Below, piece by piece: positions 7,630-49,949 of a DNA stretch of 52,028 bases. This stretch comes from Flavobacteriaceae bacterium (lineage in GTDB: Bacteria; Bacteroidota; Bacteroidia; Flavobacteriales; Flavobacteriaceae), in NCBI GenBank assembly GCA_009827225.1, contig WUAI01000023.1, positions 1-52,028 on the forward strand. Direction: 5' to 3'. The notes under the pieces were generated by a model. That model saw only the letters and a program-made list of their open reading frames with translations, had not been told where the DNA came from and searched no databases. Made by a program: the position numbers and the translations under genes. How positions within the stretch are numbered: the stretch's first letter is position 1; every line of letters begins with the position of its first letter.

Positions 7630-8376
7630 CTAGTCCAGTCTTTTGATCTTGATATTTCGGTACCAAACCTTATCGTCGTGATCCTGAAGACCGATATGAC
7701 CGGTCTGATATTTCCCGAATCCTTCCCAATCAGCAAATTTGGAATCGGCGACCATTGCATCCCATTCGTCGCCATGCACGGGGAAGGTGAATAATTCATT
7801 TCCATTAAATGTAACCTTGCCAAGATTGGTATTGTGATTCACCTCAATGACACATAAGTTCCATTCTCCAACGGGCACTGGTGCATCAAAAGGAGCCGCG
7901 ATCATGTCGTACAGGGAAGCGGCGACATGGGTTTCAAATTTACCATCGGGATGCCCTACATTATCCAATACCTGTATTTCAGGGCCAGTTTCATAGGCTT
8001 CCGGGAATTTTTCATCTTCATGTACTCCCCAGAAAATTCCGCTATTTCCATTTTCTGAAATTTTCCATTCCAGGGACAGAACGAAATTGGTAAAAGTTTC
8101 TTTAGTGATGATATTTTTACCTCCTTCTTCTCCAGGGTTAAACGCCAATGTCCCATCTTCGATGGTCCATTCCGGGTACATTCCTTCTTGCAGATAACCA
8201 CGCCATTGGTCCATAGAAGTTCCATCGAATAGGGTGATCCATTCTGAACTTTCTTCAGCTACTTTCTCTTCTGTGGTCTCCATGGTAGTTTCGGTTTCTG
8301 CAACTTCTTCTTTTTGGCCATCTTTACAGCCGATGAGGATTGTTGCTATTATTACGGTAAATATCGCTTTTCTCAT
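7630..8376 (-). CDS. DUF1080 (3-keto-disaccharide hydrolase/hydratase-type) lipoprotein
   Basis: Exported lipoprotein of 248 residues: MRKAIFTVIIATILIGC, lipidated at Cys17, followed by an acidic Glu/Thr linker and then a concanavalin-like DUF1080 domain (ITLFDGTSMDQWRGY at its start, NGNSGIFWGVHEDEKFPEAYE, GPEIQVLDN, and GHIGLQDHDDKVWYRNIKI at its end). DUF1080 enzymes act on 3-keto-glycosides or their enediol products. I chose the ATG at 8376; the ORF extends only to a TTG at 8385. It is the last gene of a five-gene operon (gaps 10, 3, 9 and 16 bases) with sugar dehydrogenase and isomerase-type genes, which supports a role in the oxidative glycoside route. Confidence 0.85.
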   Translation of the reverse strand: MRKAIFTVIIATILIGCKDGQKEEVAETETTMETTEEKVAEESSEWITLFDGTSMDQWRGYLQEGMYPEWTIEDGTLAFNPGEEGGKNIITKETFTNFVLSLEWKISENGNSGIFWGVHEDEKFPEAYETGPEIQVLDNVGHPDGKFETHVAASLYDMIAAPFDAPVPVGEWNLCVIEVNHNTNLGKVTFNGNELFTFPVHGDEWDAMVADSKFADWEGFGKYQTGHIGLQDHDDKVWYRNIKIKRLD

Positions 8377-8392
8377 AGGGTTCAATTTTATA

Positions 8393-9445
8393 TTATAATC
8401 CTAAAATTTTTCTAAGTTTCTCTTTATCGATCTCTGCGCCGGCAAAATCATCAAAACGTTTTTGAGTGGCTTCAATGATGCGGTCGCTAATAAATTTTGC
8501 TCCTTCCCTGGCACCTTGTTCCGGACTTTTGATTACACATTCCCATTCCATAACCGCCCAGACATCACATCCGTATTCGGTGAGCTTGCTAAATACAGTT
8601 TTATAATCTATTTGCCCGTCTCCAAGGGAACGATAACGTCCCGCGCGATCTTTCCAATCGGAGTACCCACCAAAAGCACCTTTTTTCCCAGTAGGATTAA
8701 ATTCAGAATCCTTTACATGAAAGGCCTTAATGAATTCATGGTAGTGATCTATATATTCCAAATAATCCAGCTGCTGCAGCACAAAGTGACTCGGATCATA
8801 TAAAATATTTACGGCTTTATGATGATTGGTGGCCTCCAAGAAGCGTTCGAAAGTAATTCCATCGTGAAGATCCTCACCGGGGTGAATTTCGTAGCAAACT
8901 GCCACACCGTTATCTTCAAATTCATTGAGAAGTGGCAACCATCTCTTAGCAAGCTCTTCGAAGCCCATTTCTACCAGGCCTTCAGGTCGTTGCGGCCAGG
9001 GATGCCAGGTATGCCATAAAAGGGCACCGCTAAAAGTGGCGTGAGCCTTTAATCCCAGATGTTGAGAGGCTCTAGCCGCACTAAGCATTTGCTGGCGTGC
9101 CCATTCGGTACGTTTCGCCGGGTTGTTCTTACAATCATCCGGTGCAAAGTTGTCGAACATTAGGTCGTAGGCAGGATGAACCGCCACTAACTGACCCTGA
9201 AGGTGCGTAGACAATTCTGTGATTTCCAGGCCATAGGAGTTTATTTTTCCCTTTAGTTCGTCGCAGTACACCTTGCTTTCACCAGCCAGTGAAAGGTCGA
9301 TAAGCCTGCTTTCCCAGGTGGGAATTTGAATGCCTTTATAACCCAAGTCGGCCGCCCATTGACAAAGTCCTTCCAGTGAATTAAAAGGAGCATGGTCGTC
9401 CATGAATTGAGCCAAAAATACAGCGGGTCCTTTGATCGTTTTCAT
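8393..9445 (-). CDS. sugar phosphate isomerase/epimerase-type TIM barrel enzyme (AP_endonuc_2 family), cytoplasmic
   Basis: 350 residues and no signal peptide, so cytoplasmic. The four metal ligands of the xylose-isomerase-like barrel are visible: Glu186 (CYEIHPGED), Asp217 (YDPSHF), His243 (AFHVKDSEF) and Glu300 (AVMEWE). In Bacteroides thetaiotaomicron an enzyme of this fold from a comparable DUF1080/Gfo-Idh cluster was reported to act as the lyase on 3-keto-glycosides; I recall this from the literature and cannot check it here. Isomerisation of a 3-keto sugar is the alternative. It lies between the Gfo/Idh dehydrogenase and the DUF1080 gene. Confidence 0.85.
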   Translation of the reverse strand: MKTIKGPAVFLAQFMDDHAPFNSLEGLCQWAADLGYKGIQIPTWESRLIDLSLAGESKVYCDELKGKINSYGLEITELSTHLQGQLVAVHPAYDLMFDNFAPDDCKNNPAKRTEWARQQMLSAARASQHLGLKAHATFSGALLWHTWHPWPQRPEGLVEMGFEELAKRWLPLLNEFEDNGVAVCYEIHPGEDLHDGITFERFLEATNHHKAVNILYDPSHFVLQQLDYLEYIDHYHEFIKAFHVKDSEFNPTGKKGAFGGYSDWKDRAGRYRSLGDGQIDYKTVFSKLTEYGCDVWAVMEWECVIKSPEQGAREGAKFISDRIIEATQKRFDDFAGAEIDKEKLRKILGL

Positions 9446-9454
9446 ACGTTTAAA

Positions 9455-10591
9455 TTATTTCAGGGATTTCCAGACATTTCCTTCCCTATGAGATTGAACG
9501 GCGGTCTCGATGAAGTACATTCCACGAACCCCATCACGCATGGAAGGGAATTCTGCAGGGTCATAACTTTCACCTCTAACGGCTTTTGCCATCCCTTTAT
9601 AAATGTTACCCATAGCGTCGAATATTCCTTCGGGATGGCCGGGAGGTAACTTGGTTCCATCAAGAGACAATTCGCTGTTATAGGAATGTCCAGGCTTCAA
9701 AATACGCAACGGCTTACCATCCTCCAGCAAGTACAGGTAATTAGGATTTTCCTGTTCCCAGCGCAGCCCCGCTTTTTTGCCATAGACGGCAACCCTGAAA
9801 TTATTTTCTTCTCCCGTAGCGATCTGACTCGCTCGCAGTACCCCTTTTACATAGCTATCAAAGCGAAGCAATACCGTACCATCGATATCCATTTGGTTGT
9901 CTTCGTACAAATGATTCAAATCCGCTAAAATACCTTTCACCTCTAGGCCGGTCATGTATTCGATCATTTGATAAGCATGTACACCAATATCCCCCATGCA
10001 GCAGCTAATCCCCGATTTTTCCGGATCAAGGCGCCATGTGGTTTTGCGAAGTTCAGGATCGTGAATTATAGGATTGATCCAACCCTGATAGTATTGTGCG
10101 TCTACTTTTTGTATTTCCCCAATCACACCTTCAGCAATCATACTTTTCATTTGGCGAACCATAGGATAGCCGGTGTAAGTATGCGTCAAGGCAAAAAGAT
10201 TATTGTGCTCCTTTTGAATTGATTCCAGTTCCAACGCCTCCTCATAGGTCATGGTCATGGGTTTCTCACAGATTACGTTAAAGCCTGAAGCCAGCAGCTT
10301 TTTGGCCATAGGGAAGTGCAAAAAATTCGGCGTGAGTATGGAAAAAACCTGTATGCGTTCATCTTCAGGTAGCTTCAATTCCCCGGCTACCATAGCGTCA
10401 AAATCCGGATAGATCCTGTCCGTCGGAATTCCGATTTCTTCAGCAAATTCAATACTTTTTTCATATTCCGGGTTAAAAACCGCCCCGGTCAATTGATAGG
10501 CGTCAAACATACTGGCGGCGACTCTATGCAATACCCCAATAAGGGAATCACCTCCTCCTCCAAGTACACCCCATCTTATTTTATTACTCAT
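9455..10591 (-). CDS. Gfo/Idh/MocA family NAD(P)-dependent sugar oxidoreductase
   Basis: 378 residues. N-terminal Rossmann fold with GVLGGGGDS (8-16), the family Glu-Lys-Pro triad at 109-111 (ICEKPMTMT), and the substrate-side motif GDIGVHAYQMIEYMTG with its conserved Asp and His. No signal peptide, so cytoplasmic. Members oxidise or reduce the C3 hydroxyl of sugars, inositols and glycosides. In this operon it could reduce a 3-keto sugar delivered by the permease to the parent hexose, or oxidise glycosides itself; direction cannot be decided from sequence. Confidence 0.88.
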   Translation of the reverse strand: MSNKIRWGVLGGGGDSLIGVLHRVAASMFDAYQLTGAVFNPEYEKSIEFAEEIGIPTDRIYPDFDAMVAGELKLPEDERIQVFSILTPNFLHFPMAKKLLASGFNVICEKPMTMTYEEALELESIQKEHNNLFALTHTYTGYPMVRQMKSMIAEGVIGEIQKVDAQYYQGWINPIIHDPELRKTTWRLDPEKSGISCCMGDIGVHAYQMIEYMTGLEVKGILADLNHLYEDNQMDIDGTVLLRFDSYVKGVLRASQIATGEENNFRVAVYGKKAGLRWEQENPNYLYLLEDGKPLRILKPGHSYNSELSLDGTKLPPGHPEGIFDAMGNIYKGMAKAVRGESYDPAEFPSMRDGVRGMYFIETAVQSHREGNVWKSLK

Positions 10592-10594
10592 ATA

Positions 10595-11824
10595 CTATTC
10601 TTTGTATTCGATTTGTTCATTTTTAAACAGAAGAGCGAAAATTACAAATACCACTGCAGCAAAAATAGCAGGGAATATCCATACCTCTTTCCAGTTATGT
10701 TGTGCTTCAGCAATTAGATTAGCGTCCATCACTCTTCCCGATATGTAAAAACCGATAAGCATCCCAACACCATATGTTGCAAGAGTTATCAATCCTTGGG
10801 CAGCACTTTTAATTTTTTCTCCTGCTTTACTGTCGGTATAAATTTGTCCGGAAACGAAGAAGAAGTCATAACATATTCCATGGAGAACGATTCCAGTTAT
10901 GATCATAAAAAAGAGGTCGCCAGTATCACCGAATGCGAATAACAAATAACGAACCGCCCAAGCTAACATTCCTACCAATATGGTTTTTTTAAATCCATAT
11001 TTTTTAAAGAAGAAGGGAAGCAATAGCATAAACACTATCTCTGATACTTGACCGGCAATTGTCAATGCCGTTGACGCCTCAACTTCATTCTCGGTGAGAA
11101 AGACACTTAGATTTTGATAATAAAAGGCAAGTGGCACACATATTAATACAGAGGAAATGAAGAAAACGAGAAAGTTTCTATCTTTTAAAAGTTTTAATGC
11201 ATCCAAACCTAGTATATCAGAGATACTTATTTTTTCATTTTTGCCTAATTTCGGAGGTGTTTTTGGAAGAATAAAACTAAATACTCCTAAAACTCCAGAT
11301 GCGATCGCCGACATCAAGAAAGTATTTTTTAACAATCCCGCCTCAATGCTTTCTTTTGAGTCCCAAGCAAAAATGAAACTAATCGAAAGCCCTACCACGA
11401 CCCATCCAATTGTACCCCAAACTCGAATTTTTGGAAATTGTTTTGTTGGATCGGACATTTGATGGAATGATACTGAATTTACTAGGGCCAGAGTAGGCAT
11501 ATAAGCAATCATATACCCAAGGACATAAGGATAGAAATTGGAAAAATCTGTAGCCACATATAATTTATACATAAGGAAAGCTCCAATTAGATGCAGCACT
11601 CCCAATATTCTTTCAGCATTAAAGAAACGATCTGCGATCAAACCTATAATGAAAGGCGCAATAATGGCACCCCATGATTGGGTAGAATATGCCATTGCTG
11701 TGTCACCCCCAGTAGCAGCAAGATTGTTTGGTAAAAATGAACTCATGGTAACAAACCAGCCTCCCCAAATAAAAAACTCGAGGAACATCATAAAGGACAA
11801 TTTAAAATAAGTGAGCGATTTCAT
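10595..11824 (-). CDS. MFS permease of the nucleoside:H+ symporter (NupG-like) family
   Basis: 409 residues with about 12 hydrophobic segments. The start FKLSFMMFLEFFIWGGWFVTM and the YSTQSWGAIIAPFIIGLIADR loop are characteristic of the Nuc_H_symport family. In Bacteroidota, members inside sugar isomerase/DUF1080 operons are probably sugar or keto-sugar importers and not nucleoside carriers; that is inference from context. The gene is clearly richer in A+T than its neighbours: two consecutive 60-base lines (11161-11280) have only 16-17 G+C bases. It is three bases from the Gfo/Idh gene. Confidence 0.85.
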   Translation of the reverse strand: MKSLTYFKLSFMMFLEFFIWGGWFVTMSSFLPNNLAATGGDTAMAYSTQSWGAIIAPFIIGLIADRFFNAERILGVLHLIGAFLMYKLYVATDFSNFYPYVLGYMIAYMPTLALVNSVSFHQMSDPTKQFPKIRVWGTIGWVVVGLSISFIFAWDSKESIEAGLLKNTFLMSAIASGVLGVFSFILPKTPPKLGKNEKISISDILGLDALKLLKDRNFLVFFISSVLICVPLAFYYQNLSVFLTENEVEASTALTIAGQVSEIVFMLLLPFFFKKYGFKKTILVGMLAWAVRYLLFAFGDTGDLFFMIITGIVLHGICYDFFFVSGQIYTDSKAGEKIKSAAQGLITLATYGVGMLIGFYISGRVMDANLIAEAQHNWKEVWIFPAIFAAVVFVIFALLFKNEQIEYKE

Positions 11825-11834
11825 ACGGTTGGTT

Positions 11835-12812
11835 TTATTTTGCTTTTGCGTAGGCTTTGTTGATCAAATTCTTAGTGGCCACGATTCCGTCGGGCTCACT
11901 TAAGGTTTCAGATTCATATTCCACTCCGATATATCCTTCATAACCAGCGTCCTTGACGATCTGTAGCATCTTATAGAAATCGATCTTGGTTTCATTTCCA
12001 TCTTCGTCAAACTCGTAAGCCTTTGCACTTACCGCCATGGCAGCGGGCATCATCATTGCCAGCCCTTTATAGTAGTCCGGGAACTCTTCCACACATTTTC
12101 CCCATCGTTCTTCGTTCTCACGCTTAACGCACCAATTTCCGAAATCGGGTAAGGTTCCACAATTTGGCATATCCACTCCTTTGATCGCTTGCATTACCAG
12201 TGGGGCGTCGGAAGAAAGCCATCCGTGGTTTTCCGCCAGCACATTGATTCCCTTGGTAGCTGCATACTGGGACAATTTTCTTAATCCGTCCTGCACGACA
12301 TCGATCCAAATTTCCGGGGCGTTAGTCCCAAATGTATTCACTCGAATGGCATGTCCGCCCATCTTATCCACGGCATCTACCCATTTCTTATGGTTTTCGA
12401 CGGCCAGATTTCTTTTTTCCAGATTAGGATCGGCCAGGTCGCCTTCATGGTCCACCATTACCAATACGGTGGAAACGCCATGTTTTTTTTGTTCATTTAT
12501 CAATGAGTCCACAACCGCATCGATCCCTAATTCTTTTACATCATCTTCATAGAATTGAGTAACGTATTCAACCGCATCGAATCCCAACTCTTTCGCATCG
12601 CGAGCAAAATTGTAAGGATTACCATCTGGCGCTTGGTAACGCATATGAAGCGACCATTGCGCCAAGGAAATTTTAGGAGATGATTCGGAATCAGCTTTGA
12701 CTTCTGTTGTGGCTTCTTCATTTACCGCCTCGGTATCCTGAGTCTCTTCTGTAGAATTTTTACAAGAGATAACCAGCAGGCAAAGCATTAATAGCGTGGA
12801 GATTTCTTTCAT
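11835..12812 (-). CDS. exported lipoprotein TIM-barrel sugar isomerase/epimerase
   Basis: 325 residues: signal MKEISTLLMLCLLVISC (lipidation at Cys17), a Glu/Thr-rich linker, then an AP_endonuc_2 barrel (ISLAQWSLHMRYQ, GFDAVEYVTQFY, VLAENHGWLSSD, LPDFGNWCV, GYIGVEYESE). The last motifs supply the metal-binding acidic residues. I chose the ATG at 12812 because it starts the lipoprotein signal; the longer ORF from 12926 runs through the intergenic region. It is the first gene of the leftward operon. A lipoprotein-anchored copy next to a cytoplasmic homologue suggests that keto-sugar chemistry starts outside the inner membrane. Confidence 0.85.
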   Translation of the reverse strand: MKEISTLLMLCLLVISCKNSTEETQDTEAVNEEATTEVKADSESSPKISLAQWSLHMRYQAPDGNPYNFARDAKELGFDAVEYVTQFYEDDVKELGIDAVVDSLINEQKKHGVSTVLVMVDHEGDLADPNLEKRNLAVENHKKWVDAVDKMGGHAIRVNTFGTNAPEIWIDVVQDGLRKLSQYAATKGINVLAENHGWLSSDAPLVMQAIKGVDMPNCGTLPDFGNWCVKRENEERWGKCVEEFPDYYKGLAMMMPAAMAVSAKAYEFDEDGNETKIDFYKMLQIVKDAGYEGYIGVEYESETLSEPDGIVATKNLINKAYAKAK

Positions 12813-12871
12813 AATTTTCAATATATATTTCCGTAGAAAGAAGTGCTTTCTTCGGCTTGGATAATTCTGCC

Positions 12872-12879
12872 CTAAGGTA
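12872..12879 (-). promoter_or_regulatory. possible -7 element of the leftward glycoside operon
   Basis: Reads TACCTTAG leftward, one mismatch to TAnnTTTG, 59 bases before the start at 12812. The palindrome at 12936-12949 lies upstream of it. Weak call. Confidence 0.3.
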
Positions 12880-12935
12880 GCTTTTTTTTGAAAAAAATTA
12901 GGTCGTATATTCGATTCTGTTATCATTTTCTCAGC

Positions 12936-12949
12936 CGAAAACGATTTCG
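12936..12949. promoter_or_regulatory. LacI-family-like operator in the divergent glycoside promoter region
   Basis: CGAAAACGATTTCG, an imperfect palindrome with a central CG and outer arms CGAAA/TTTCG. It sits between the two divergent sugar operons (12813-13099). It shares the pattern CGAAAACGWTTKCR with sites at 24227 and 33943. LacI/GalR-family operators characteristically have this central CpG flanked by A and T runs. Confidence 0.5.
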
Positions 12950-13099
12950 TATTGCAATGAATTATTTTTAAGAGTTCATTTTTGCTAAAACCAAAAAAAA
13001 AATGGACATTTAAGGGTTTGGTTTGAAAAAGTTATAATAACACTGCACTTTTTCAGCCATGAATCAAAAGTTTAACTAACCCGTATATAATAGAAAGAA

Positions 13100-14797
13100 A
13101 TGGCAAACCCGAATGAACAGTATGACGCGATTGTTGTAGGTTCCGGAATTAGCGGCGGATGGGCCGCTAAAGAACTATGTGAGAACGGTCTCAAAACACT
13201 TGTTTTGGAAAGAGGCCGAATGGTAAAGCACATAGAGGATTACCATACCATGAATATGGATCCCTGGGATTTTAAGTATAAAGGACAACTTCCCAAGGAA
13301 GAACAATCAAAACAAGAAAAACAAGCCCGGACGGGGTATACAACTGATGAAGCTCATCGTCACTTTTTTGTAAATGATCTTGATCATCCTTACAATGAGG
13401 TAAAGCGTTTTGACTGGATGCGAGGATATCATGTTGGTGGTCGTTCATTAGTATGGGGTCGTCAAAGTTATCGACTCTGCGATTTTGATTTTGAAGCCAA
13501 TAAGAAAGAGGGAATCGCAGTGGACTGGCCGGTTCGCTATGATGATATTTCTCCTTGGTACGATAAGGTAGAGGAGTACATTGGTGTAAGTGGTGAGAAC
13601 TTGGGATTACCTCAGCTACCAGACGGTAAGTTTTGCCCTCCGATGGAACTGAATTGTGCTGAAGAAGACCTTAAAGGGAAGATTGCAGATAATTATACTG
13701 ACGGTCGTTTACTAACGATCGGAAGAGCAGCTCATATCACGGGGACAGGTACTTTTGAAGGGCGTTCAGCCTGCCAGTTCAGAAATCGATGTATGCGCGG
13801 ATGTCCATTCGGTGGATATTTCAGCAGTAATTCGTCCACACTTCCGGCTGCAGAGAAAACAGGAAACCTCACACTCCGGCCCAACTCGATTGTGGCCGAA
13901 GTGATCTATGATGAAGCAAGCGGAAAGGCGAGTGGTGTCAAGGTTATCGATGCAGAAACCAAGGAAGAAATGGTATTCAATGCCAAAGTAATCTTCCTAT
14001 GTGCTTCGGCAATTGCCAGTGCGGCTATATTGATGCATTCGAAGAGCGAGCGTTTCCCGAACGGAATGGGGAACGATAGTGGAGAGTTAGGCCATAATAT
14101 TATGGACCACCATTTTAAAGCAGGTGCATGGGCAACAGTAGAAGGGTTTGAAGATAAGTACTATAAAGGACGTCGTCCGAATGGGATATATATCCCTCGA
14201 TTCCGAAACGTTGGAGGAGAGACCGATCAACCGAATTTCAAGCGAGGATATGGTTACCAGGGAGGTGCAAGTCGAAGTCATTATGAAGAAATGATCGCCG
14301 AGTTGGCTTATGGTAAAGATTTGAAAGCTCAGGTAACCAAGCCGGGTAAATGGAGAATGTTGCTGTTAGGGTTTGGTGAGTGTCTGCCTTATCATGAAAA
14401 CAAAATGATGCTGGATTATGATAATCTGGACCAGTGGGGATTACCCACTGTCACCTTCGATGTGGAATGGAAGGAAAACGAATACGAAATGAGAAAGGAC
14501 ATGGTGCAGCAGGCTGTTGAGATGCTGGAAAGCGCCGGTTATACTGAAATTGAAGAATGGGATGACCCGGGAGCACCAGGACTGGGAATCCACGAAATGG
14601 GAACAGCCCGAATGGGGAAAGACCCGAAAACATCGGTATTGAATGGAAACAATCAAATTCATGCCGTACCGAATGTATATGTAACCGATGGGGCCTTCAT
14701 GACCTCGGCTAGTTGTGTGAATCCGTCACTTAGCTATATGGCGTTTAGTGCGAGAGCAGCACATCATGCCGCTAACCAAATTAAAAACCAAGCATAA
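13100..14797 (+). CDS. GMC family FAD-dependent sugar dehydrogenase (glycoside 3-dehydrogenase-like large subunit)
   Basis: 565 residues. The FAD-binding GxGxxG is at 14-19 (VGSGISGG). Active-site motif IHEMGTARM supplies His498 and the CVNPSLSYM segment supplies Asn541. Three cysteines, C225, C231 and C235 (CX5CX3C), lie where some FAD glucose dehydrogenases hold an iron-sulfur cluster. There is no signal peptide; export is expected by hitch-hiking on the Tat-type signal of the next gene's product. The stop overlaps the next start by one base (TAATG). Together they resemble the glucoside 3-dehydrogenases, which oxidise the C3 hydroxyl of many glycosides; gluconate or other polyol dehydrogenase is possible. 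Confidence 0.85.
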   Translation: MANPNEQYDAIVVGSGISGGWAAKELCENGLKTLVLERGRMVKHIEDYHTMNMDPWDFKYKGQLPKEEQSKQEKQARTGYTTDEAHRHFFVNDLDHPYNEVKRFDWMRGYHVGGRSLVWGRQSYRLCDFDFEANKKEGIAVDWPVRYDDISPWYDKVEEYIGVSGENLGLPQLPDGKFCPPMELNCAEEDLKGKIADNYTDGRLLTIGRAAHITGTGTFEGRSACQFRNRCMRGCPFGGYFSSNSSTLPAAEKTGNLTLRPNSIVAEVIYDEASGKASGVKVIDAETKEEMVFNAKVIFLCASAIASAAILMHSKSERFPNGMGNDSGELGHNIMDHHFKAGAWATVEGFEDKYYKGRRPNGIYIPRFRNVGGETDQPNFKRGYGYQGGASRSHYEEMIAELAYGKDLKAQVTKPGKWRMLLLGFGECLPYHENKMMLDYDNLDQWGLPTVTFDVEWKENEYEMRKDMVQQAVEMLESAGYTEIEEWDDPGAPGLGIHEMGTARMGKDPKTSVLNGNNQIHAVPNVYVTDGAFMTSASCVNPSLSYMAFSARAAHHAANQIKNQA

Positions 14798-15438
14798 TGG
14801 ATAGAAGAAGCGCACTTAAAAACATTGGATTGGGAGCTGGATTTCTTGTAGCTACCCCAACCATTATGAGCTTATTACAAAGCTGCAATAATGAACCTGA
14901 GTTTATTCCTGTTTTCTTCACACCGGGTGAAGGTCATGCACTGAGACGTATGGTGGATCTTATCATTCCTTCAGACGAACAAGTTCCGGGCGCAGTGGAC
15001 GTTGGAGTACATTCCTTTATCGATCAATATTGTAATGCAGTTTTGGAGGAGGAAGATCAGCAAATGGTGAAAGCCGGCTGGGTGGCTATTGGAGATAAGT
15101 TCCGAAGCAAGTTCGAAAAAGAGCTGGCCGATGGGAAACCGGAAGAATTTACTCAGTTATTGGATGAATACTTAAAGACCTCCAAGGAAGAACAACGCGC
15201 CTATGGCGATAAAATGGGAGAGTTTATGATGGCATTTGCGGAGGACCCCAGTGCCACACCGGATTCGGATGCACTGATATTTTCTACTCTAACGGGAATG
15301 CGCGGTATCACTATCTGGGGTTGGAAATCAAGTGAGGAAATAGGAAAGAATGTACTATGGTACGATCCTGTGCCCGCCCAACAAATAGGATGTATTCCGC
15401 TTAGTGAAGCTGGCAATGGAAATGCCATGGCGCTTTAA
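14797..15438 (+). CDS. gluconate 2-dehydrogenase subunit 3 family protein (Tat-exported small subunit)
   Basis: 213 residues. N-terminus MDRRSALKNIGLGAGFL has the Tat twin arginines and ends in LLQSC, a likely lipobox (Cys29). The remainder is a helical Gluconate_2-dh3 domain (FTPGEGHALRRMVDLIIPSD; GMRGITIWGWKSSEE; VLWYDPVPAQQIGCIPL). Such subunits carry the GMC catalytic subunit across the membrane as a folded complex. Translationally coupled to the GMC gene and seven bases ahead of the TIM-barrel gene. Confidence 0.85.
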   Translation: MDRRSALKNIGLGAGFLVATPTIMSLLQSCNNEPEFIPVFFTPGEGHALRRMVDLIIPSDEQVPGAVDVGVHSFIDQYCNAVLEEEDQQMVKAGWVAIGDKFRSKFEKELADGKPEEFTQLLDEYLKTSKEEQRAYGDKMGEFMMAFAEDPSATPDSDALIFSTLTGMRGITIWGWKSSEEIGKNVLWYDPVPAQQIGCIPLSEAGNGNAMAL

Positions 15439-15445
15439 ATACTAA

Positions 15446-16387
15446 ATGATGAAAAGACGAGATTTTATACAAAAGGGAGCCCTTGCAGGTTCCCTTTTTT
15501 CATTGGGAGGAACTGCACTGGGTTCCGAATTACGGAATCAATCCCAACTCTTACAGGAGGATGCAATGTATAAGTTCAATCTGCAATATGCCCCGCACGA
15601 TGGAATGTTCAAGGCTCATGCAGGTGAGTCAATTTTGGATCAGCTTAGATTTATGGCTGATCAAGGCTTCACTGCCTTTGAGGATAACGAGATGAAGAAT
15701 CGTAGCATGGATGAACAACGAGCCATTGCCACGATCATGGAAGAAAAGGGTCTTTCCATGGGGGTCTTTGTAGCTCATAAGATTTATTGGAAGGAACCAA
15801 ACCTCGCCAGTGGGAAAGAAGCTTGGCGAGAAGAATTTTTGACCCACATCAGGGAATCTGTTGAGGTGGCAAAAAGGGTCAACGCCAAATGGATGACCGT
15901 GGTTCCCGGCCATGTGGATCTTCGCCTGAATGAACACTATCAAATGACCAATGTGATAGAAACATTGAAACGGGCGAGCGAGATTCTGGAGCCACATGGA
16001 CTCGTTATGGTATTGGAACCACTCAATTTTCGGGATCACCCGGGCCTGTTTTTAACCGAATCACCTCAAGCCTACGAGATTTGTAAGGCGGTGGACAGCC
16101 CATCATGTAAAATACTTTTCGACATCTATCATCAACAGATCCAGGAAGGTAATTTAATACCCAATATCGAAGCATGCTGGGATGAGATCGCGTATTTTCA
16201 GATTGGAGATAATCCGGGCCGTAATGAACCTACTACCGGAGAGATCAACTATAAGAATGTTTTCAAGTATATTCATTCCAGGGGGTTTAAAGGTATCCTG
16301 GGAATGGAACATGGAAATTCCATGGATGGTAAGAATGGAGAAATGGCGGTGATCGAAGCCTATAAAAAAAGCGATGACTTTTTGTAA
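15446..16387 (+). CDS. Tat-exported hydroxypyruvate-isomerase-like TIM-barrel enzyme
   Basis: 313 residues. The signal MMKRRDFIQKGALAGSLFS carries a clear Tat motif (RRDFIQK). The mature part is an AP_endonuc_2/Hyi-like barrel with metal-ligand motifs MVLEPLNFRDHPG, ILFDIYHQQIQEG, AYFQIGDNPGR and GILGMEHGNS. Two adjacent ATGs (15446, 15449) are possible starts. It is third in the GMC operon, so it probably acts in the periplasm on the oxidised sugar made by that dehydrogenase, for example as a keto-glycoside lyase or isomerase. Confidence 0.85.
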   Translation: MMKRRDFIQKGALAGSLFSLGGTALGSELRNQSQLLQEDAMYKFNLQYAPHDGMFKAHAGESILDQLRFMADQGFTAFEDNEMKNRSMDEQRAIATIMEEKGLSMGVFVAHKIYWKEPNLASGKEAWREEFLTHIRESVEVAKRVNAKWMTVVPGHVDLRLNEHYQMTNVIETLKRASEILEPHGLVMVLEPLNFRDHPGLFLTESPQAYEICKAVDSPSCKILFDIYHQQIQEGNLIPNIEACWDEIAYFQIGDNPGRNEPTTGEINYKNVFKYIHSRGFKGILGMEHGNSMDGKNGEMAVIEAYKKSDDFL

Positions 16388-16417: not shown

Positions 16418-16930
16418 CTAATTCACAATAAACTTTCCTTTCATGACACCCGAATGACCCGGGAAGCTACAGATGAAATCATAGGTGCCTGAATCAGGGG
16501 CAGTGAATGTTACGGAAGTGCTTTGCCCTCCTCCAATCATTTTTGTGTGCGCGATAACATCCTTACCTCCATCAGGAATCCAGTCTTCCGCTTCTCCGAC
16601 ATTAGCCGCAGCCAATGAAAAAGTAGGGATATCTACTCCAGGTTTTAGAACAACAAAGTTGTGCCCCATTACCTTAATATCCATTTTACCGATGTGACGT
16701 AGCGTGATGGTGACTTCCTGCCCGGAATTCACGGTGATTTCCGACTTACTGAATTTCATCAGGTCATCTCCGGTTATTCCGATGTTCACCGAGTTGTCGT
16801 CTGCTTTTTTAGTTTCTTTTTTGGTGCCGATCTTTACCGATTCTTCTTCGGTTTTCTTCTCTTTTTCACCACCGCAGCTAATCAGTAACGCCAAGGCGAA
16901 AAGAGGAAGGTATTTTTTAAGGATTTTCAT
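16418..16930 (-). CDS. azurin, lipoprotein blue copper protein
   Basis: 170 residues: lipoprotein signal ending LLISC (Cys19), a Lys/Glu linker, then a complete azurin domain. Type 1 copper ligands are His90 (VMGHN), Cys154, His159 and Met163 (CSFPGHSGVM, with the azurin spacing of 5 and 4). Azurins carry electrons in the periplasm, usually to cytochrome oxidases. The start overlaps the end of the yheT-like gene by 14 bases, so the two are probably co-transcribed. Nearby GMC dehydrogenases need an electron acceptor, and no cytochrome c gene is present here; azurin taking that role is conjecture. Confidence 0.92.
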   Translation of the reverse strand: MKILKKYLPLFALALLISCGGEKEKKTEEESVKIGTKKETKKADDNSVNIGITGDDLMKFSKSEITVNSGQEVTITLRHIGKMDIKVMGHNFVVLKPGVDIPTFSLAAANVGEAEDWIPDGGKDVIAHTKMIGGGQSTSVTFTAPDSGTYDFICSFPGHSGVMKGKFIVN

Positions 16931-42328: not shown

Positions 42329-43231
42329 TTAAAAATAAATCTCTTGTGCCAAACGATAGGTATTCGCATGTGCATCAATGATGGTTTTAATGTCCGGGGA
42401 GTATCCTCCACCCATGCTAACTTGTACCGGGATATTGAGCTCTTTGCAGGTAGACAACACATAACGATCACGCTCTTTACAACCATCCGGAGTACATCCG
42501 AGGCGCCCAAGTTTATCGGTTGAAACTATATCGACGCCACTTAGGTAGAAAATGAAATCTGGTTGTACTTCGGAAATCAAATCGGGGAGGGTATTATTCA
42601 GAATTCGCAAATATTCTTCATCTCCGGTTCCGTCTTTAAGTCCGATATCAAGATCACTTTTTTCTTTTCTGAAGGGGTAGTTTCCCTGTCCGTGCATGGA
42701 GAATGTAAATACACTGGTGTCATTCTGAAATATCTCAGCGGTACCGTTCCCCTGGTGCACATCGAGATCAACCATCAGTATTTTTTTTGCAAGCTTTTTC
42801 TTCTGAAGGGTACGGGCACCCACCGCCTGATCGTTGAACAGACAAAAGGCTTCGCCACGATTGGTATAAGCATGGTGCGTCCCACCGGCAATATTCATGG
42901 CGATACCATTTTCCAGTGCAAATTCGCAACCAATAATGGTCCCTTGAGTAATGATATGTTCCCGTTCAATTAGTTTTTCTGAAAGTGGAAAACCAATCTT
43001 CCTTGCTTCCGATTTGCTAAGAGAAAGAGATCTTAAATTATCAATGTATTCCCTGGTATGCACCAGTTCAATGTCTGCATCCTCCGGGTATCCCGGATCG
43101 AAAAAATTATCGAGTTCGCAGGTGCCTTCGCGCAATAACTGTTGGTAGAGCAATTCGTATTTCGACATCGGAAATCGATGTCCCAATGGCAGTGGGTGTT
43201 TAAAAATGGGATTATATGCTACTTTCAGCAT
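42329..43231 (-). CDS. histone deacetylase-like zinc hydrolase
   Basis: 300 residues. The histidine pair His119-His120 (GGTHHAY), zinc ligands Asp157 and His159 (VDLDVHQGNGT), a further Asp in LSGVDIVSTDKLG, and the transition-state Tyr in GGGYSP are all present, so it should be active. Bacterial homologues deacetylate acetoin-utilisation proteins, acetylpolyamines or other small amides; an acs gene is about 5 kb away but not linked. Its start overlaps the previous gene's stop by one base. Confidence 0.9.
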   Translation of the reverse strand: MLKVAYNPIFKHPLPLGHRFPMSKYELLYQQLLREGTCELDNFFDPGYPEDADIELVHTREYIDNLRSLSLSKSEARKIGFPLSEKLIEREHIITQGTIIGCEFALENGIAMNIAGGTHHAYTNRGEAFCLFNDQAVGARTLQKKKLAKKILMVDLDVHQGNGTAEIFQNDTSVFTFSMHGQGNYPFRKEKSDLDIGLKDGTGDEEYLRILNNTLPDLISEVQPDFIFYLSGVDIVSTDKLGRLGCTPDGCKERDRYVLSTCKELNIPVQVSMGGGYSPDIKTIIDAHANTYRLAQEIYF

Positions 43232-44668: not shown

Positions 44669-46741
44669 TTAGTTTATCGTACTTCCGTTTTCGATCCCTT
44701 CATCATCAGGATTTACAAATACCAGATTCCCATCGGCTTTTTCGGTCATTAGTATCATTCCTTCGCTTTCAACACCTCTCAAAGCTCTCGGGGCCAGGTT
44801 CACGAGCACGGTGACTTTTCTACCGATTATCTCCTCGGCACTGAAACTTTCAGCAATCCCTGATACGATAGTCCGAACATCGATCCCGGTGTCCACCTTC
44901 AGCACCATTAGCTTTTTGGTCTTTGGCATTTTTTCAGCTTCGAGGATGGTTCCTACACGCAGGTCCAACTTGGTAAAATCTTCAAATTGTATCATATCTT
45001 TTATGGGTTCAAGCGTTGAATTGTTTTCTTCATTTTCTTTTTTGCTGGCCACCAATTTATCTCGCTGTGCCTGCATCTGTACATCTTCAATCCTTGCAAA
45101 CAGCAATTCACTCTTAGCAATTTCATGTCCCTCAGGAATTAGTTGATGTGTTTCTGTAATCTTACCCCAATCAAGTTCAGGATCCTGCAAGGAATCAATG
45201 CGTAAAATGCGTTTCAATTTATCCGAAGTATGAGGAAGAAATGGTTCGCTAAGTATAGCAAGAGCTGTCGCTATTTGCATAGCAATATACATCACGGTTT
45301 GGGTCCGTTCTTCATCGCTCTTAATGGTCTTCCAGGGCTCTTCGTCGGCAAGGTATTTATTTCCCAATCGGGCCACATTCATCAGTTCGGCTTGGGCTTC
45401 TCTGAAGCGATATCGCTCAATGGAACTAGCAATCACTTCCGGGTACGTTTGAAGTTCTTTCAACGTAATTTGATCGACTTCGGAAAGCGCATTGGGTGTA
45501 GGGACTACACCATCATAATATTTATGGGTGAGCACAGCCACCCGATTGATAAAATTTCCGAAGATAGCCACCAACTCACTATTATTGCGCGCCTGGAAAT
45601 CGGACCAGGTGAAATCGTTGTCCTTGGTTTCCGGAGCATTGGCAGTAAGCGTATATCGCAACACATCCTGTTGATCAGGAAACTCCTCCAGGTATTCATG
45701 CAACCATACAGCCCAGTTTTTACTTGTCGAGATTTTGTTCCCTTCCAGGTTCAAAAACTCATTGGCAGGAACATTGTCCGGCAGGACATAACTGCCCTCG
45801 GCCTTTAGCATACTTGGGAAGATGATACAATGAAATACGATATTGTCCTTCCCAATGAAGTGTAATAGTTTCGTTCCTTCGTCTTTCCAGTAGGGTTCCC
45901 AATCTTTTTGATATTGATCTGCCCATTCTTTTGTAGCCGAAATGTAACCAATCGGAGCATCGAACCATACATAAAGCACTTTGCCGTCGGCCCCTTCTAC
46001 AGGCACGGGAATCCCCCAATCCAGGTCGCGGGTCACGGCACGTGGCCTTAATCCATCGTCGATCCAGGACTTGCATTGCCCATAAACATTGGTTTTCCAA
46101 TCTTTTTTATGTCCTTCGATAATCCATTCTTTCAACCATGGCTCGTATTGATCTAACGGTAGAAACCAGTGCTTGGTTTTTTTGGTAACCGGAGTACTTC
46201 CGCTGATTGCACTTTTAGGATTGATAAGATCGGTGGCGTTATGAGAAGTACCACAATTCTCGCATTGGTCTCCATAACTTTCTTCATAACCGCACTTCGG
46301 ACAGGTACCAATTACAAAGCGGTCTGCCAGGAATTGCTGTGCTTCTTCGTCGTACAATTGTTCGGTTACCTCTTCGGTAAATTTCCCATCATCGTACAAT
46401 TTCTTAAAGAATTCTGAAGCGGTGTCGTGATGAATTTTTGCTGAAGTTCTGGAATAATTATCGAACGATATACCAAATTGCTCAAAGGAGGTTTTAATCA
46501 TGGCGTGGTATTTATCCACCACCTGCTGTGGGGACACTCCTTCTTTTTTGGCCTTTAATGTTATGGGAACTCCATGTTCGTCACTTCCGCAAATGAACAG
46601 AACGTCCTTTCCCTGCAGTCTTTGATATCGTGCATAGATATCAGCAGGCACATAAACACCCGCCAAATGTCCTATATGCACAGGGCCATTCGTGTAGGGT
46701 AATGCTGCGGTAATCGTATATCTTTTCGGATCCTGGATCAT
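44669..46741 (-). CDS. metG: methionyl-tRNA synthetase
   Basis: 690 residues. HIGH motif H22-I-G-H25, the Zn-knuckle domain [24 protein letters not shown] (KMSKS equivalent), and a C-terminal EMAP-like tRNA-binding domain ([20 protein letters not shown] onward) that makes it a dimer form. I chose the ATG at 46741 (MIQDPKRY); the upstream ATG at 46783 lies within the promoter -7 element at 46781-46788. Confidence 0.96.
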
Positions 46742-46780
46742 GGTTATTTCTGAAATATGCTTTACAGGATAAAACAGCTG

Positions 46781-46788
46781 CAAAAATA
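46781..46788 (-). promoter_or_regulatory. metG promoter -7 element
   Basis: Reads TATTTTTG leftward, a full TAnnTTTG match, 40 bases before the chosen ATG. Confidence 0.55.
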
Positions 46789-46842: not shown

Positions 46843-48471
46843 TTATTTGATCATAATCGATTTACTGTAATGCTGCCCGCCGGTGCTTATTCGGTAAATA
46901 TATTGACCGAAACTGAGTCGGGTATTGGTATTGGCAATCACATCAACGGAGTGTTGTCCGGGGAAAAGCATCTCGTTTTTGAGCGTAGCGATTTCTTTCC
47001 CCATGATATCATAGAGTTTGATATTGACATGTGCCGTTACCGGCATTTGCATCTCGATATAGGTTCGATCGTTGGAATAGGTCGGACGATGAACGAATCG
47101 GGAGACATTTCCGAAGTCGATCGTATCCAGAATCTCACAATTGAATCCGAGATCTAAAGTTTCATAAGATTGTCCCAGCAGTATCAAATCCAACACCGAT
47201 GGGTCCAAACAGAACCAATTGGTAAGCACAGAACTGTATACATCCCGGAAATCTGAAGAAGGAATTAAATTGTCGTTGTTATCCCAAATATTGATATCAG
47301 GATGTTCACCAACAAATCCACTTCCCTCTAGCGCAGGACCAAACAACATTACTGGAGAAGCCGCGCCATGATCCGTTCCGAATGATCCATTCTCGTAGGG
47401 TCGTCGCCCAAATTCAGAAATCGTCATCGACAATACTTGTGAATCCATTCCCGAAGTGGCCAGATCGTCATAAAAGTTCTTCATTGAAGCTGATAAATCT
47501 TCGAGTAGAGTCTGATGTAGATCTGCCTGCTCCGCATGAGTATCGAAACCATTGAGGGTTACCATATAAACTTTGGTGCCCAATCCACCTTTGATCAGTC
47601 GGGCTACAATCGCTAACTGGTTTGAAAGCTCGGCATCTTCATAAGGCGCATCGTTATTGGCAGCCAAATAGGCATCATTGATCACCCCTGCATATTGGAA
47701 TGTCGTATTTGTGGTAGACCTCATAAACAGCAGTTTGTCACCGTAAACACAATCCGGTATATCCAGGACATCGTGTACCGTGCCGCTTTCAGCTACACTG
47801 GCCAATTGTTCCGGATTCGCTACTGCAAAGGCGTAATTATTGTCGTTGCCTTCAAAGATGAGGTTTCCGATACTACCTATCTGAACGGCAGGTGGAACAT
47901 CCGGCGGATTTACGAGATAATCGGGATACAGATCCTCGAAATATCTTCCCCACCAACCTGTAGGCTCGAAGAGAACAGATTCCGCAGATGCCCATATATC
48001 AGAAGATCGGAAATGAGAGAGATTTTGGTTGGGATACCCCACACCGTGCACTACTTTCATTTTACCGTCACCCCACATGGGTTGCAGATTGTTCATATAA
48101 TTCGGCATTCCGAAGTCACTATTCAGCATGATGAGATCGTTTTGCTCATGCCGAATGGTAGGCCGTAAGTTGGCATAACTCGCGTAGTCGTACACCGGAA
48201 CTATAGTATTCAGGCCATCGTTACCTCCTTTAAGGCGAACGATCACCAATATGTTGTCATTTTCACTTTGCGATAGGGCCACGGAAAGCGGTGATGGCTT
48301 AGAGGCAGAAACCGAAGTAGTTCCTCCCAGCATCATACTACCTGCACCTGCTAATCCAAGCGCCTGGATAAATGATCGCCGGTTCCACTGAATGTGCTCC
48401 TGATCGTGAATTGTCTTTTCATCTTTCGAAGAAGATGGTTGTTTTGGAATATGATGATGATTGTTACACAT
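46843..48471 (-). CDS. DUF1501 protein with Tat-type signal and T9SS C-terminal sorting domain
   Basis: 542 residues. A hydrophilic N-terminal extension precedes [19 protein letters not shown] (about residues 30-48), which has the Tat twin-arginine form. The DUF1501 domain (sulfatase-like fold: [53 protein letters not shown]) follows. The last 84 residues ([15 protein letters not shown] through KSIMIK) are a T9SS type A sorting domain. Function unknown; surface-exposed. Pairs with the DUF1800 gene nine bases upstream. Confidence 0.85.
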
Positions 48472-48479
48472 AGCAGTTT

Positions 48480-49949
48480 TTATTTAAGTTGAAATTCGGG
48501 CATTTTGGCAATGTGAACCAGCAGTAAATAGCACTGGTATGGTGCTTCAGACCAGCTGAGGTTCCAGGTGCCGTCGTCGTAGTAATTTTGGGGGATTTCC
48601 CACTTAAATATATCGGTCGCTACTACGTAATCATTCGCAGTATGTAATGGTTTGCTCACAAAATGATCCACCATTACCTGGGTGATAAATTCCGGGTCGT
48701 TGCTATCGTTAGACAAATCTCTGGCGAGATCAACCAACGAAAATTCGTATCCATTACCAAACAGGTATCCGAGATAGAGTTCCATAAGAGACCATCGTCC
48801 GGCAAGAGTAGAGGAGTTTATCCAGGTTTCGTCTCGTTGCCATCCGGAAACATCGGGCGGGTCATAGATTTCCTGACCCATAAGTCCGGCGTAATACAAA
48901 AACGCATCCAAAATAGCATCGTCATAAAAGAACTGAGTGTCATTCACAAAAGAATTGATCACATCGAACGGACTCTTGATAATTACCCCTAACGCTCTTT
49001 CATCAAAGAAATGCTCACTTTTGAATAGCAGTTTCAACATCGGTACCATTTCCCAGTTATTGTTGATCAATTCCTGGGCGAGAGGTGCGATAATCTCAGT
49101 TTCAATCACGGCATCTACCGACGGACTCACAAAGAATTTATAGAGCTTCGTGGTAATGAAGGTCGCTATCTGGGTAGTTCGCTGTTCGAATAAAATATCG
49201 ATGACATCGTCGTAATCCCAGGGACCTTCCTGGTTGAAAATCGTTTTATTGGTCGCATCAAAGGTACTGGCATCAAAATAGATATCGCCGCCATATTCGG
49301 TCCAGTGATTGTAACCTGTAAGGGCCCTGGATGTTTCAGTAATATCTTCCTCGGTATACGTATGTCCTTCACCTAGAGTGAATAATTCATAAAGCTCTCT
49401 GGCATAATTCTCATTCGGGTTGAAATTTGTATTCTGAAATCCATTCAGATACAACAACATGGCATTACTCACCCCAATTTCCCGCACAAAGTCTTTAAAA
49501 TTTCCAAGTGCATGGGTCTGGTTGATGTTGTAATACTGAAACATATACGGAGAATAGAAATACGTCTCTAACTCGGTCACGAAATGATTCATCCAGAAAA
49601 ATGTGAGTCTTCCACGTAACTTTTCCGAAATAATATCATTCCCGGATTGTAATCTCCAGTTAAATACATTTTCGTTATTCTCGGTTTCAAAATCTGTAAA
49701 ATCACTGAACGCCCAATATCCCCATGGAGGGGCAGGCGTCACAGGTAGATTGTAGGCGCCATCTACCAAAGAATCTATAAAATCTCCGGGAGAAAGGGCC
49801 AGGGCATCATCTATCTCGATAATATTGGCTCCGAAACCTAATCTCCGAAAAACATGTTTAATTTTGCTTGTATTCCAGGGATTGCCTCCGGAAGGAACAT
49901 AAGGATCTAGCGTAGCTGCATTACAAGAAGGATTCGTAGCTATTTCCAT
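48480..49949 (-). CDS. DUF1800 family protein
   Basis: 489 residues of the DUF1800 family, marked by IKHVFRRLGFGAN, LRGRLTFFWMNHFVTE, NFKDFVREIGVSNAMLLYL, NENYARELYELFTLGEGH and DPPDVSGWQRDETW. No clear signal peptide at the predicted start. Always found with a DUF1501 gene in Bacteroidota and Planctomycetes; the pair's job is not known to me. First gene of a two-gene operon. Confidence 0.85.
   Translation of the reverse strand: MEIATNPSCNAATLDPYVPSGGNPWNTSKIKHVFRRLGFGANIIEIDDALALSPGDFIDSLVDGAYNLPVTPAPPWGYWAFSDFTDFETENNENVFNWRLQSGNDIISEKLRGRLTFFWMNHFVTELETYFYSPYMFQYYNINQTHALGNFKDFVREIGVSNAMLLYLNGFQNTNFNPNENYARELYELFTLGEGHTYTEEDITETSRALTGYNHWTEYGGDIYFDASTFDATNKTIFNQEGPWDYDDVIDILFEQRTTQIATFITTKLYKFFVSPSVDAVIETEIIAPLAQELINNNWEMVPMLKLLFKSEHFFDERALGVIIKSPFDVINSFVNDTQFFYDDAILDAFLYYAGLMGQEIYDPPDVSGWQRDETWINSSTLAGRWSLMELYLGYLFGNGYEFSLVDLARDLSNDSNDPEFITQVMVDHFVSKPLHTANDYVVATDIFKWEIPQNYYDDGTWNLSWSEAPYQCYLLLVHIAKMPEFQLK

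Follow-up and report, generated by a model that had tools for sequence, protein, structure and literature searches.

What route do eight adjoining genes encode when they combine a GMC dehydrogenase with a DUF1080 lipoprotein and three TIM barrels, and on which side of the inner membrane would each of its steps take place? These genes lie at positions 7630 to 16387 of contig WUAI01000023.1 from a Flavobacteriaceae bacterium (assembly GCA_009827225.1); the window that we analysed is a stretch of 52,028 nucleotides of this contig. A sequence-only reading had described eight contiguous genes in two divergent operons, and had assigned them to a 3-keto-glycoside pathway split between periplasm and cytoplasm. 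All eight open reading frames (ORFs) are intact, five leftward and three rightward, and the ORFs and Pfam matches confirm the gene order and the families (Table 1). Two descriptions were corrected. The start of the exported lipoprotein barrel (here LIPTIM) most likely lies at 12812, at an internal methionine upstream of the signal sequence and lipobox (the ORF itself runs from 12926); and the dehydrogenase small subunit looks like a lipoprotein exported by twin-arginine translocation (Tat), not just a Tat substrate. The two other barrels are referred to as HYD (cytoplasmic) and TATTIM (Tat-exported). The claim that the cluster lacks a glycoside hydrolase gene held: at E 1e-3, PF06439 ('3-keto-disaccharide hydrolase') was the only Pfam glycoside hydrolase family matched by the eight proteins. 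The cluster probably encodes a flavobacterial version of the route in which glycosides are cleaved by oxidation, elimination, hydration, and reduction, divided between the two compartments; this class of pathway has good support.

The assignment begins with HYD. Over its full length, HYD is identical at 227 of 349 positions (65%) to 8ro4, a structure deposited as 2-hydroxy-3-keto-glucal hydratase. In this alignment the metal-site-like motifs CYE-x-HPG, LYDPSH, FHVKD, and EWEC are all retained in HYD, and the hydratase score of 540.7 bits compares with 32 bits for IolE, the nearest alternative of named function. Judged by its sequence, the cytoplasmic barrel is a 2-hydroxy-3-keto-glucal hydratase. 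This identity is a firmer link to 3-keto-glucoside chemistry than the family names DUF1080, GMC, and Gfo/Idh provide and, with the published systems discussed below, bears out the chemistry proposed earlier. A search of the open-access literature found nothing under the name 2-hydroxy-3-keto-glucal hydratase; in Agrobacterium tumefaciens, AtHYD was given the hydration step on preliminary evidence (PMC10628242).

Profile searches were run over the whole source genome (3.25 Mb, 99.28% complete). The genome has three AP_endonuc_2 matches, all within these 9 kb, and its single GMC_oxred_C match is also inside the cluster. PF06439 has one match over the cut-off, in the cluster, and one further match below it. 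Gfo/Idh is not exclusive to the cluster (8 matches in the genome, 6 over the cut-off). The concentration of these families in 9 kb is far beyond chance, and the cluster is one functional unit, as had been supposed.

The comparison of other genomes leads to the same conclusion. We fetched 80 loci centred on HYD, the best 80 of at least 596 matches, with 74 to 95% identity to HYD; their titles mostly name Flavobacteriaceae or its genera, some only Bacteroidetes or Bacteroidia, and one Rokubacteria. The divergent layout recurs around HYD across these loci, the small subunit gene is on the strand opposite HYD in 52 of 58, and in most of the loci no protein is better conserved than HYD. Neighbours were counted in the 61 well-covered loci, which have at least 9 kb before and at least 3 kb after HYD. 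Gfo/Idh was found in all 61, GMC in 60, the small subunit in 57, LIPTIM in 55, the PF03825 permease in 47, and TATTIM in 22. With the window's DUF1080 protein as query, a match was near HYD in 54 loci; counting divergent relatives raised this to 58, which leaves three loci lacking DUF1080 (L014, L057, and L078). All seven core families were present in 37 loci, or 40 with the divergent DUF1080 proteins included.

HYD is present in 42 of 100 genomes sampled from the family Flavobacteriaceae. LIPTIM occurs in all 42 and in two others; GMC accompanies HYD in 41 genomes, with one having HYD only and four GMC only. PF06439 was matched at E 1e-3 in all 42 HYD genomes and in 18 others. For the permease we counted only matches over the Pfam cut-off (36 of the 39 genomes with any match): 34 genomes have both, eight HYD only, and two the permease only (Fisher p 1e-16; this and the other Fisher values given here overstate independence, because the 100 genomes are related).

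Export was called on orthologues by simple twin-arginine (RR) and lipobox patterns rather than with a trained predictor; L001 and L002, which come from the genome under study, were left out, as was any match with query coverage under 60%. Neither pattern was found in any of 80 HYD orthologues. Among 77 Gfo/Idh orthologues none had an RR motif, and the lipobox-like match in seven was taken as chance. A lipobox was present in 54 of 64 LIPTIM orthologues (RR in 12 of 64) and, in its strict form, in 49 of 70 DUF1080 orthologues, 58 of which have a cysteine somewhere at positions 12-30. The small subunit had the RR motif in 65 of 65 orthologues and a lipobox in 62 of 65, and TATTIM had the RR motif in 23 of 24. 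GMC had neither pattern in 73 orthologues; 71 begin with a hydrophobic stretch, which we read as the FAD-binding strand. A GMC protein without its own signal is expected, because the small subunit would carry it across the membrane. These patterns place oxidation and cleavage outside the inner membrane and hydration and reduction inside, in support of the predicted division.

GMC has the motifs HEMGTARMG at 498 and NPS at 541, and together with its small subunit is a probable glycoside 3-dehydrogenase. Seven loci (L016, L017, L026, L036, L040, L049, and L053) carry an additional GMC gene between Gfo and HYD, on the other strand, and in L019 the only GMC gene found is in this position. The Gfo/Idh enzyme has EKP at 109-111 and D-x3-H at 201/205, and its gene adjoins HYD also in Pseudoalteromonas, Hymenobacter, Phyllobacterium, Sphingobium, Rhizobium, and Pantoea; it is probably a 3-keto-glucose reductase. 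In four Aquimarina loci (L008, L009, L014, and L015) the Gfo/Idh next to the conserved hydratase is markedly different (42-45% identity).

The cleavage step would fall to the exported lipoproteins. An AF2 model of LIPTIM (mean pLDDT 90.6) had its best Foldseek match to 4ovx, titled only xylose isomerase domain protein; the C-glycoside deglycosidases DgpB-C and DfgA-B took ranks 2-7, and UlaE, tagatose epimerases, and YcjR were mixed at lower ranks with similar E-values. In a search with a profile of 24 LIPTIM sequences, DgpC-type chains came first after 4ovx (whole chains 2.4e-12, 1.1e-11, and 1.2e-11). E194 and H196 of LIPTIM, invariant in all 24 sequences, align with Glu141 and His143 of PuCGE (7exz; 7bvr is the same sequence), and D223 aligns with the Asp of PDFG. 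His143 of PuCGE has been named as the catalytic histidine (PMC10628242). With the strand-5 Glu-x-His of the C-glycoside deglycosidases, in which the Glu binds metal and the His is catalytic, LIPTIM is assigned, together with DUF1080, to periplasmic cleavage, and is probably a 3-keto-glycoside beta-eliminase. The DUF1080 lipoprotein, whose PDB relatives include 8tda, 8rr2, and 4jqt, is likewise a probable periplasmic 3-keto-glycoside cleavage enzyme. The divergent DUF1080 relatives counted above are in L009, L012, L015, and L076; that of L009 (11071-11886) matches PF06439 at 7.2e-40. In these four loci the divergent protein has about 270 residues and follows HYD. At E 1e-10, 51 of the fetched loci encode proteins of this type, many of them from an extra DUF1080 gene next to one of the type in the window.

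The clusters of Pseudoalteromonas (L083) and Hymenobacter (L084) have no LIPTIM match. Each encodes a barrel with a signal-like N-terminus in which H-N-H, D, H, and E are kept. A profile built from these two and a Rhizobium barrel matched the A. tumefaciens eliminase AtOGE (8bvk) at 3.9e-47, and 8tct, 8tcd, and 8tcs more strongly. These AtOGE-type barrels suggest that the barrel family serving as the exported lyase varies between lineages. The L083 locus (Pseudoalteromonas sp. CF6-2 plasmid NZ_CP091443.1, 10834-18368) is a seven-gene run on one strand in the order Gfo-HYD-MFS-DUF1080-GMC-small subunit-exported AtOGE-type barrel, with a divergent AraC regulator at its head (MFS, major facilitator superfamily).

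The sequence-only reading had looked to all three barrels for 3-keto-glycoside lyases. Only LIPTIM is lyase-like: the cytoplasmic barrel is predicted to be the hydratase, and TATTIM resembles epimerases and isomerases. The best Foldseek matches of the TATTIM model (pLDDT 83.5) are tagatose 3-epimerases and 3ngf, with the 3-keto-glucoside 4-epimerase YcjR at rank 33. TATTIM has LEPLN at 190, where the lyases have E/H-x-H. A lyase role was rejected for this Hyi/tagatose-epimerase type barrel, which lacks E/H-x-H at that strand and is found in only the 22 loci counted above. It is also not an ordinary hydroxypyruvate isomerase, a possibility that had been raised against the pathway, since it scores 130 bits with the OH-pyruvate isomerase model against a cut-off of 353.45. 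An accessory keto-sugar epimerase or isomerase is the probable role suggested by its model and motifs.

The product of cleavage would have to enter the cytoplasm, and the PF03825 permease is its probable importer. Among the 80 loci, on the stretch compared, 59 have a PF03825 permease, 12 a second MFS family, three both, and 12 neither. In the six loci inspected in which LIPTIM and Gfo both adjoin the second-family gene (L017, L024, L050, L076, L080, and L082), it stands between them, and three members of the family that were scanned matched MFS_1, not PF03825. The cargo had been proposed to be a keto-sugar. It is more likely 2-hydroxy-3-keto-glucal, because the hydratase has no export signal; this glycal is also the simplest cargo, since production of keto-sugar only on the outside would leave the conserved HYD little to do.

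An electron acceptor, perhaps the neighbouring azurin, is to be added to the earlier account of the pathway. A mono-haem cytochrome c accepts the electrons of the Rhizobium radiobacter glucoside 3-dehydrogenase (PMC9915066). No CxxCH motif was found in the six cluster proteins scanned, and the window has no ORF of at least 90 amino acids with one. Seventeen loci have an azurin lipoprotein gene close to the small subunit or TATTIM gene and on the other strand from it; the distance is no more than 160 bases in 13 of these loci. Twelve loci encode a CxxCH-bearing cytochrome c relative: nine are convergent with the small subunit, on the same side as azurin, two are upstream of GMC on the GMC strand, and one is elsewhere. 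One locus has both azurin and cytochrome c. Pfam was used to check the cytochrome c relatives of L064 and Hymenobacter only; in the Hymenobacter cluster the cytochrome gene is in line.

Azurin was present in 23 of the 42 genomes with HYD versus 12 of the 58 without (p 6e-4), counting only matches with an E-value of at most 4.8e-26 (35 of the 44 genomes with any match at 1e-3); the nine genomes dropped all have HYD, and their matches were in open frames of at least 650 residues. The azurin gene is within 4 kb of a GMC gene in 15 of the 23 HYD genomes with azurin; distances were computed for 20 of the 35 azurin genomes, and in four HYD genomes (G004, G036, G051, and G052) azurin and GMC are on separate contigs or no GMC was found. 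Part of this linkage is an inherited neighbourhood, because yicC and gmk, on the other flank, are conserved as well, each in 55 of the 80 loci. The azurin gene is moreover convergent and outside the operon, which limits the idea. Its position makes the adjacent azurin a candidate electron acceptor of GMC; the association is suggestive, not proof. A search of the open-access literature found no pairing of azurin with GMC dehydrogenases.

We infer the following route, in its reactions in this organism as well as in its substrate, cargo, and acceptor. In the periplasm, the dehydrogenase, co-exported through the Tat signal of its small subunit, would oxidise C3 of a glycoside and pass the electrons to the neighbouring azurin. 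The 3-keto group would make the hydrogen at C2 acidic, and LIPTIM (by beta-elimination), the DUF1080 lipoprotein, or both would then break the glycosidic bond. The resulting 2-hydroxy-3-keto-glucal would enter the cytoplasm through the PF03825 permease, where HYD would convert it to 3-keto-glucose and the Gfo/Idh enzyme would reduce this to glucose. TATTIM would probably epimerise or isomerise non-gluco keto-sugars and widen the entry of substrates. The grounds for this route (the hydratase identity, export patterns, co-occurrence, and active-site residues) come from sequence comparison. Taken as a whole, the joint reading is that hydrolysis is split across compartments and a reactive unsaturated intermediate is shuttled between them: a lipoprotein barrel of the 4ovx family would make the glycal, an MFS protein of a 'nucleoside symporter' family would be its dedicated importer, a cytoplasmic hydratase and reductase would finish the conversion, and the first oxidation would be drained through a blue-copper protein, with cytochrome c in its place in sister lineages. 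In this full form we put it forward as a tentative proposal, somewhat more apt to fail in one of its parts than to hold in all of them.

Several observations weigh against the inferred route. The closest PDB relatives of GMC are the large subunits of fructose and glucose dehydrogenases, not 3-dehydrogenases. For LIPTIM, the Foldseek values of deglycosidases (1.2e-12) and epimerases (4.0e-12) are too close for the fold by itself to settle the matter. The E-x-H block aligned with PuCGE is weak (independent E 0.0012), and the strand-7 histidine of the deglycosidases and the hydratase is replaced by Ser262, invariant in all 24 LIPTIM sequences, which removes one probable metal ligand. Of the 61 well-covered loci, 21 lack at least one of the seven core genes near HYD, and eight of the 42 HYD genomes lack a PF03825 permease. 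The ubiquity of DUF1080 in HYD genomes and its presence near HYD in nearly all well-covered loci count here too: if DUF1080 hydrolyses 3-keto-glycosides completely, as proposed for Caulobacter, no cytoplasmic hydratase is needed for that flux. The same pathway could run with DUF1080 alone cleaving and hydrating outside, the permease importing 3-keto-glucose, LIPTIM acting as a feeding epimerase, and HYD only rescuing leaked glycal. The epimerases among the close fold relatives of LIPTIM would fit such a role. However, HYD is tracked more tightly by LIPTIM than by DUF1080 (two versus 18 genomes without HYD), LIPTIM has the Glu-x-His motif as in lyases, and the conservation of HYD would be odd for a mere rescue enzyme. 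We consider this arrangement unlikely, though it deserves more weight than the two that follow.

If the GMC enzyme oxidised inositol or another polyol, HYD could be an inosose dehydratase and the Gfo/Idh protein an inositol dehydrogenase. Models for these enzymes do match weakly, HYD reaching 52.6 bits with the IolE model (cut-off 290) and Gfo/Idh 49.6 bits with IolG (cut-off 355). Both scores are far under the cut-offs, and on these the myo-inositol route was rejected; the hydratase score of HYD dwarfs that with IolE, and polyol or cyclitol catabolism has no place for DUF1080 or LIPTIM. We regard it as very improbable. We give as little credence to the idea that the PF03825 protein simply transports nucleosides and sits in the operon by chance, as its Pfam and NCBIfam family names might suggest. 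The protein meets the Pfam model but scores 361.2 bits with the NCBIfam nucleoside permease model TIGR00889, below the cut-off of 446.1; 33 of the 38 over-cut-off copies in the 100 genomes are within 10.2 kb of HYD, and only two of the 58 genomes without HYD have one. Another MFS family also fills the same slot elsewhere. The reading that we prefer remains the one in which the glycal is made outside and hydrated inside.

The basic chemistry is already in print, which limits the surprise: the route itself has been described in A. tumefaciens, and near relatives of it in Caulobacter and Bacteroides thetaiotaomicron. In A. tumefaciens, GlycDH oxidises C3, AtOGE eliminates to give 2-hydroxy-3-keto-glucal, AtHYD adds water, and Gfo reduces the product to glucose; the word 'periplasm' is absent from the main text of the paper (PMC10628242). 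The window likewise has a GMC protein with a Tat small subunit, a putative TIM-barrel lyase, a predicted hydratase (the 65% identity being to 8ro4), and a putative Gfo/Idh reductase. In contrast, none of the genome's three AP_endonuc_2 matches is an AtOGE-type barrel (H-x-H, Asp, His, and Glu), and the cluster would thus work like the A. tumefaciens pathway without being an orthologous copy of it. The lyase role in the window would fall to exported lipoproteins, and the permease is of the MFS, whereas ABC transporters are found near the related Rhizobium and Phyllobacterium loci.

Caulobacter crescentus degrades lactose with LacABC and a DUF1080 protein, and relatives of this system occur in Pedobacter, Indibacter, and Algoriphagus; the LacABC dehydrogenase has three components, and the paper does not settle what becomes of the keto-sugar, its section on LacABC naming no hydratase (PMC9007349). 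The window differs from LacABC in having azurin in place of a cytochrome c gene. We take LacA to be a GMC protein and the third component to be cytochrome c.

The B. thetaiotaomicron cluster had been named as the parallel, but it is not the closest one. The window's only match to the BT2158 model NF058561 is the Gfo/Idh protein, at 24.7 bits against a cut-off of 750. Presumably, the BT2158 3-dehydrogenase is of the Gfo/Idh family, not GMC. The BT2156-BT2160 system has a periplasmic glycoside 3-dehydrogenase and, like the window, DUF1080 together with a second, alternative cleavage protein; no GMC protein is named in the passages on this system (PMC11300592, PMC12385236, PMC11501099). According to a review, BT2158 suffices in vitro when combined with BT2156 or with BT2157, a DUF1080 protein, whereas in B. 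fragilis BT2157 and BT2158 are insufficient and a third gene is needed (PMC12385236). Deletion of BT2157 or BT2158 caused no defect on raffinose-family sugars (PMC11300592, PMC12385236, PMC11501099). BT2156 and BT2157, as alternatives, are a precedent for a pair of cleavage enzymes in one system.

LIPTIM shares its fold and the Glu-x-His, Asp, and Glu residues with the C-glycoside deglycosidases (DgpB-C, DfgA-B, and CGD). Unlike these, LIPTIM is exported and lacks the strand-7 histidine, and the window genes scanned with Pfam gave no DUF6379-type match for a second (beta) subunit. We take DUF6379 to be the beta subunit of these enzymes.

The arrangement of a hydratase inside, a 4ovx-type lyase outside, a PF03825 importer, and azurin or cytochrome c nearby was not found in the open-access literature, most subscription papers lying outside the search; a search on flavobacterial GMC/Gluconate_2-dh3 clusters returned no paper that, going by its entry, dealt with them. 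If the proposal is true, it gives testable functions to three families whose names are misleading or uninformative: 4ovx-type exported barrels as lyases, flavobacterial 'nucleoside' symporters as importers of keto-sugars or glycals, and cluster-linked azurin as an acceptor for GMC. It would also mean that counts of glycoside hydrolases miss a glycoside-cleaving route whose hydratase is carried by two-fifths of the genomes sampled from one family, and it suggests a possible answer to the question left by PMC9007349, what becomes of the keto-sugar product.

Table 1. Predicted genes of the cluster and the adjoining azurin-type gene, with positions in the window.
Feature	Position	Strand	Support
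DUF1080 / 3-keto-disaccharide hydrolase family lipoprotein, probable periplasmic 3-keto-glycoside cleavage enzyme	7630-8385	-	PF06439 2e-44, lipobox LIGC
HYD, predicted cytoplasmic 2-hydroxy-3-keto-glucal hydratase, AP_endonuc_2	8393-9445	-	1.4e-161 to 8ro4
Gfo/Idh/MocA, cytoplasmic, probable 3-keto-glucose reductase	9455-10591	-	PF01408, PF22725, PF02894; 3v5n 3.4e-85
MFS permease, Nuc_H_symport, probable cleavage-product importer	10595-11824	-	PF03825 1.5e-114
LIPTIM, exported lipoprotein TIM barrel, AP_endonuc_2, probable 3-keto-glycoside beta-eliminase	11835-12812 (ORF opens 12926)	-	lipobox VISC
GMC FAD dehydrogenase catalytic subunit, probable glycoside 3-dehydrogenase	13100-14797	+	PF05199, PF00732
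Gluconate_2-dh3 small subunit, Tat lipoprotein by pattern	14797-15438	+	PF13618 1.5e-19
TATTIM, Tat-exported TIM barrel, AP_endonuc_2, probable accessory keto-sugar epimerase/isomerase	15446-16387	+	Foldseek, motifs
Azurin-type cupredoxin lipoprotein, candidate GMC electron acceptor	16418-16930	-	TIGR02695 109.1 bits vs cut-off 105.1

The azurin gene is convergent with the rightward group. A promoter scan of the intergenic stretch found two promoter-like sites versus 1.4 expected. Elsewhere in the window, and unrelated to the cluster, a pair of DUF1501 and DUF1800 genes, which are often found together, occupies 46843-49949. A histone deacetylase family protein is encoded at 42329-43231, two genes from the methionyl-tRNA synthetase gene (44669-46783); the one gene between them has no Pfam match.

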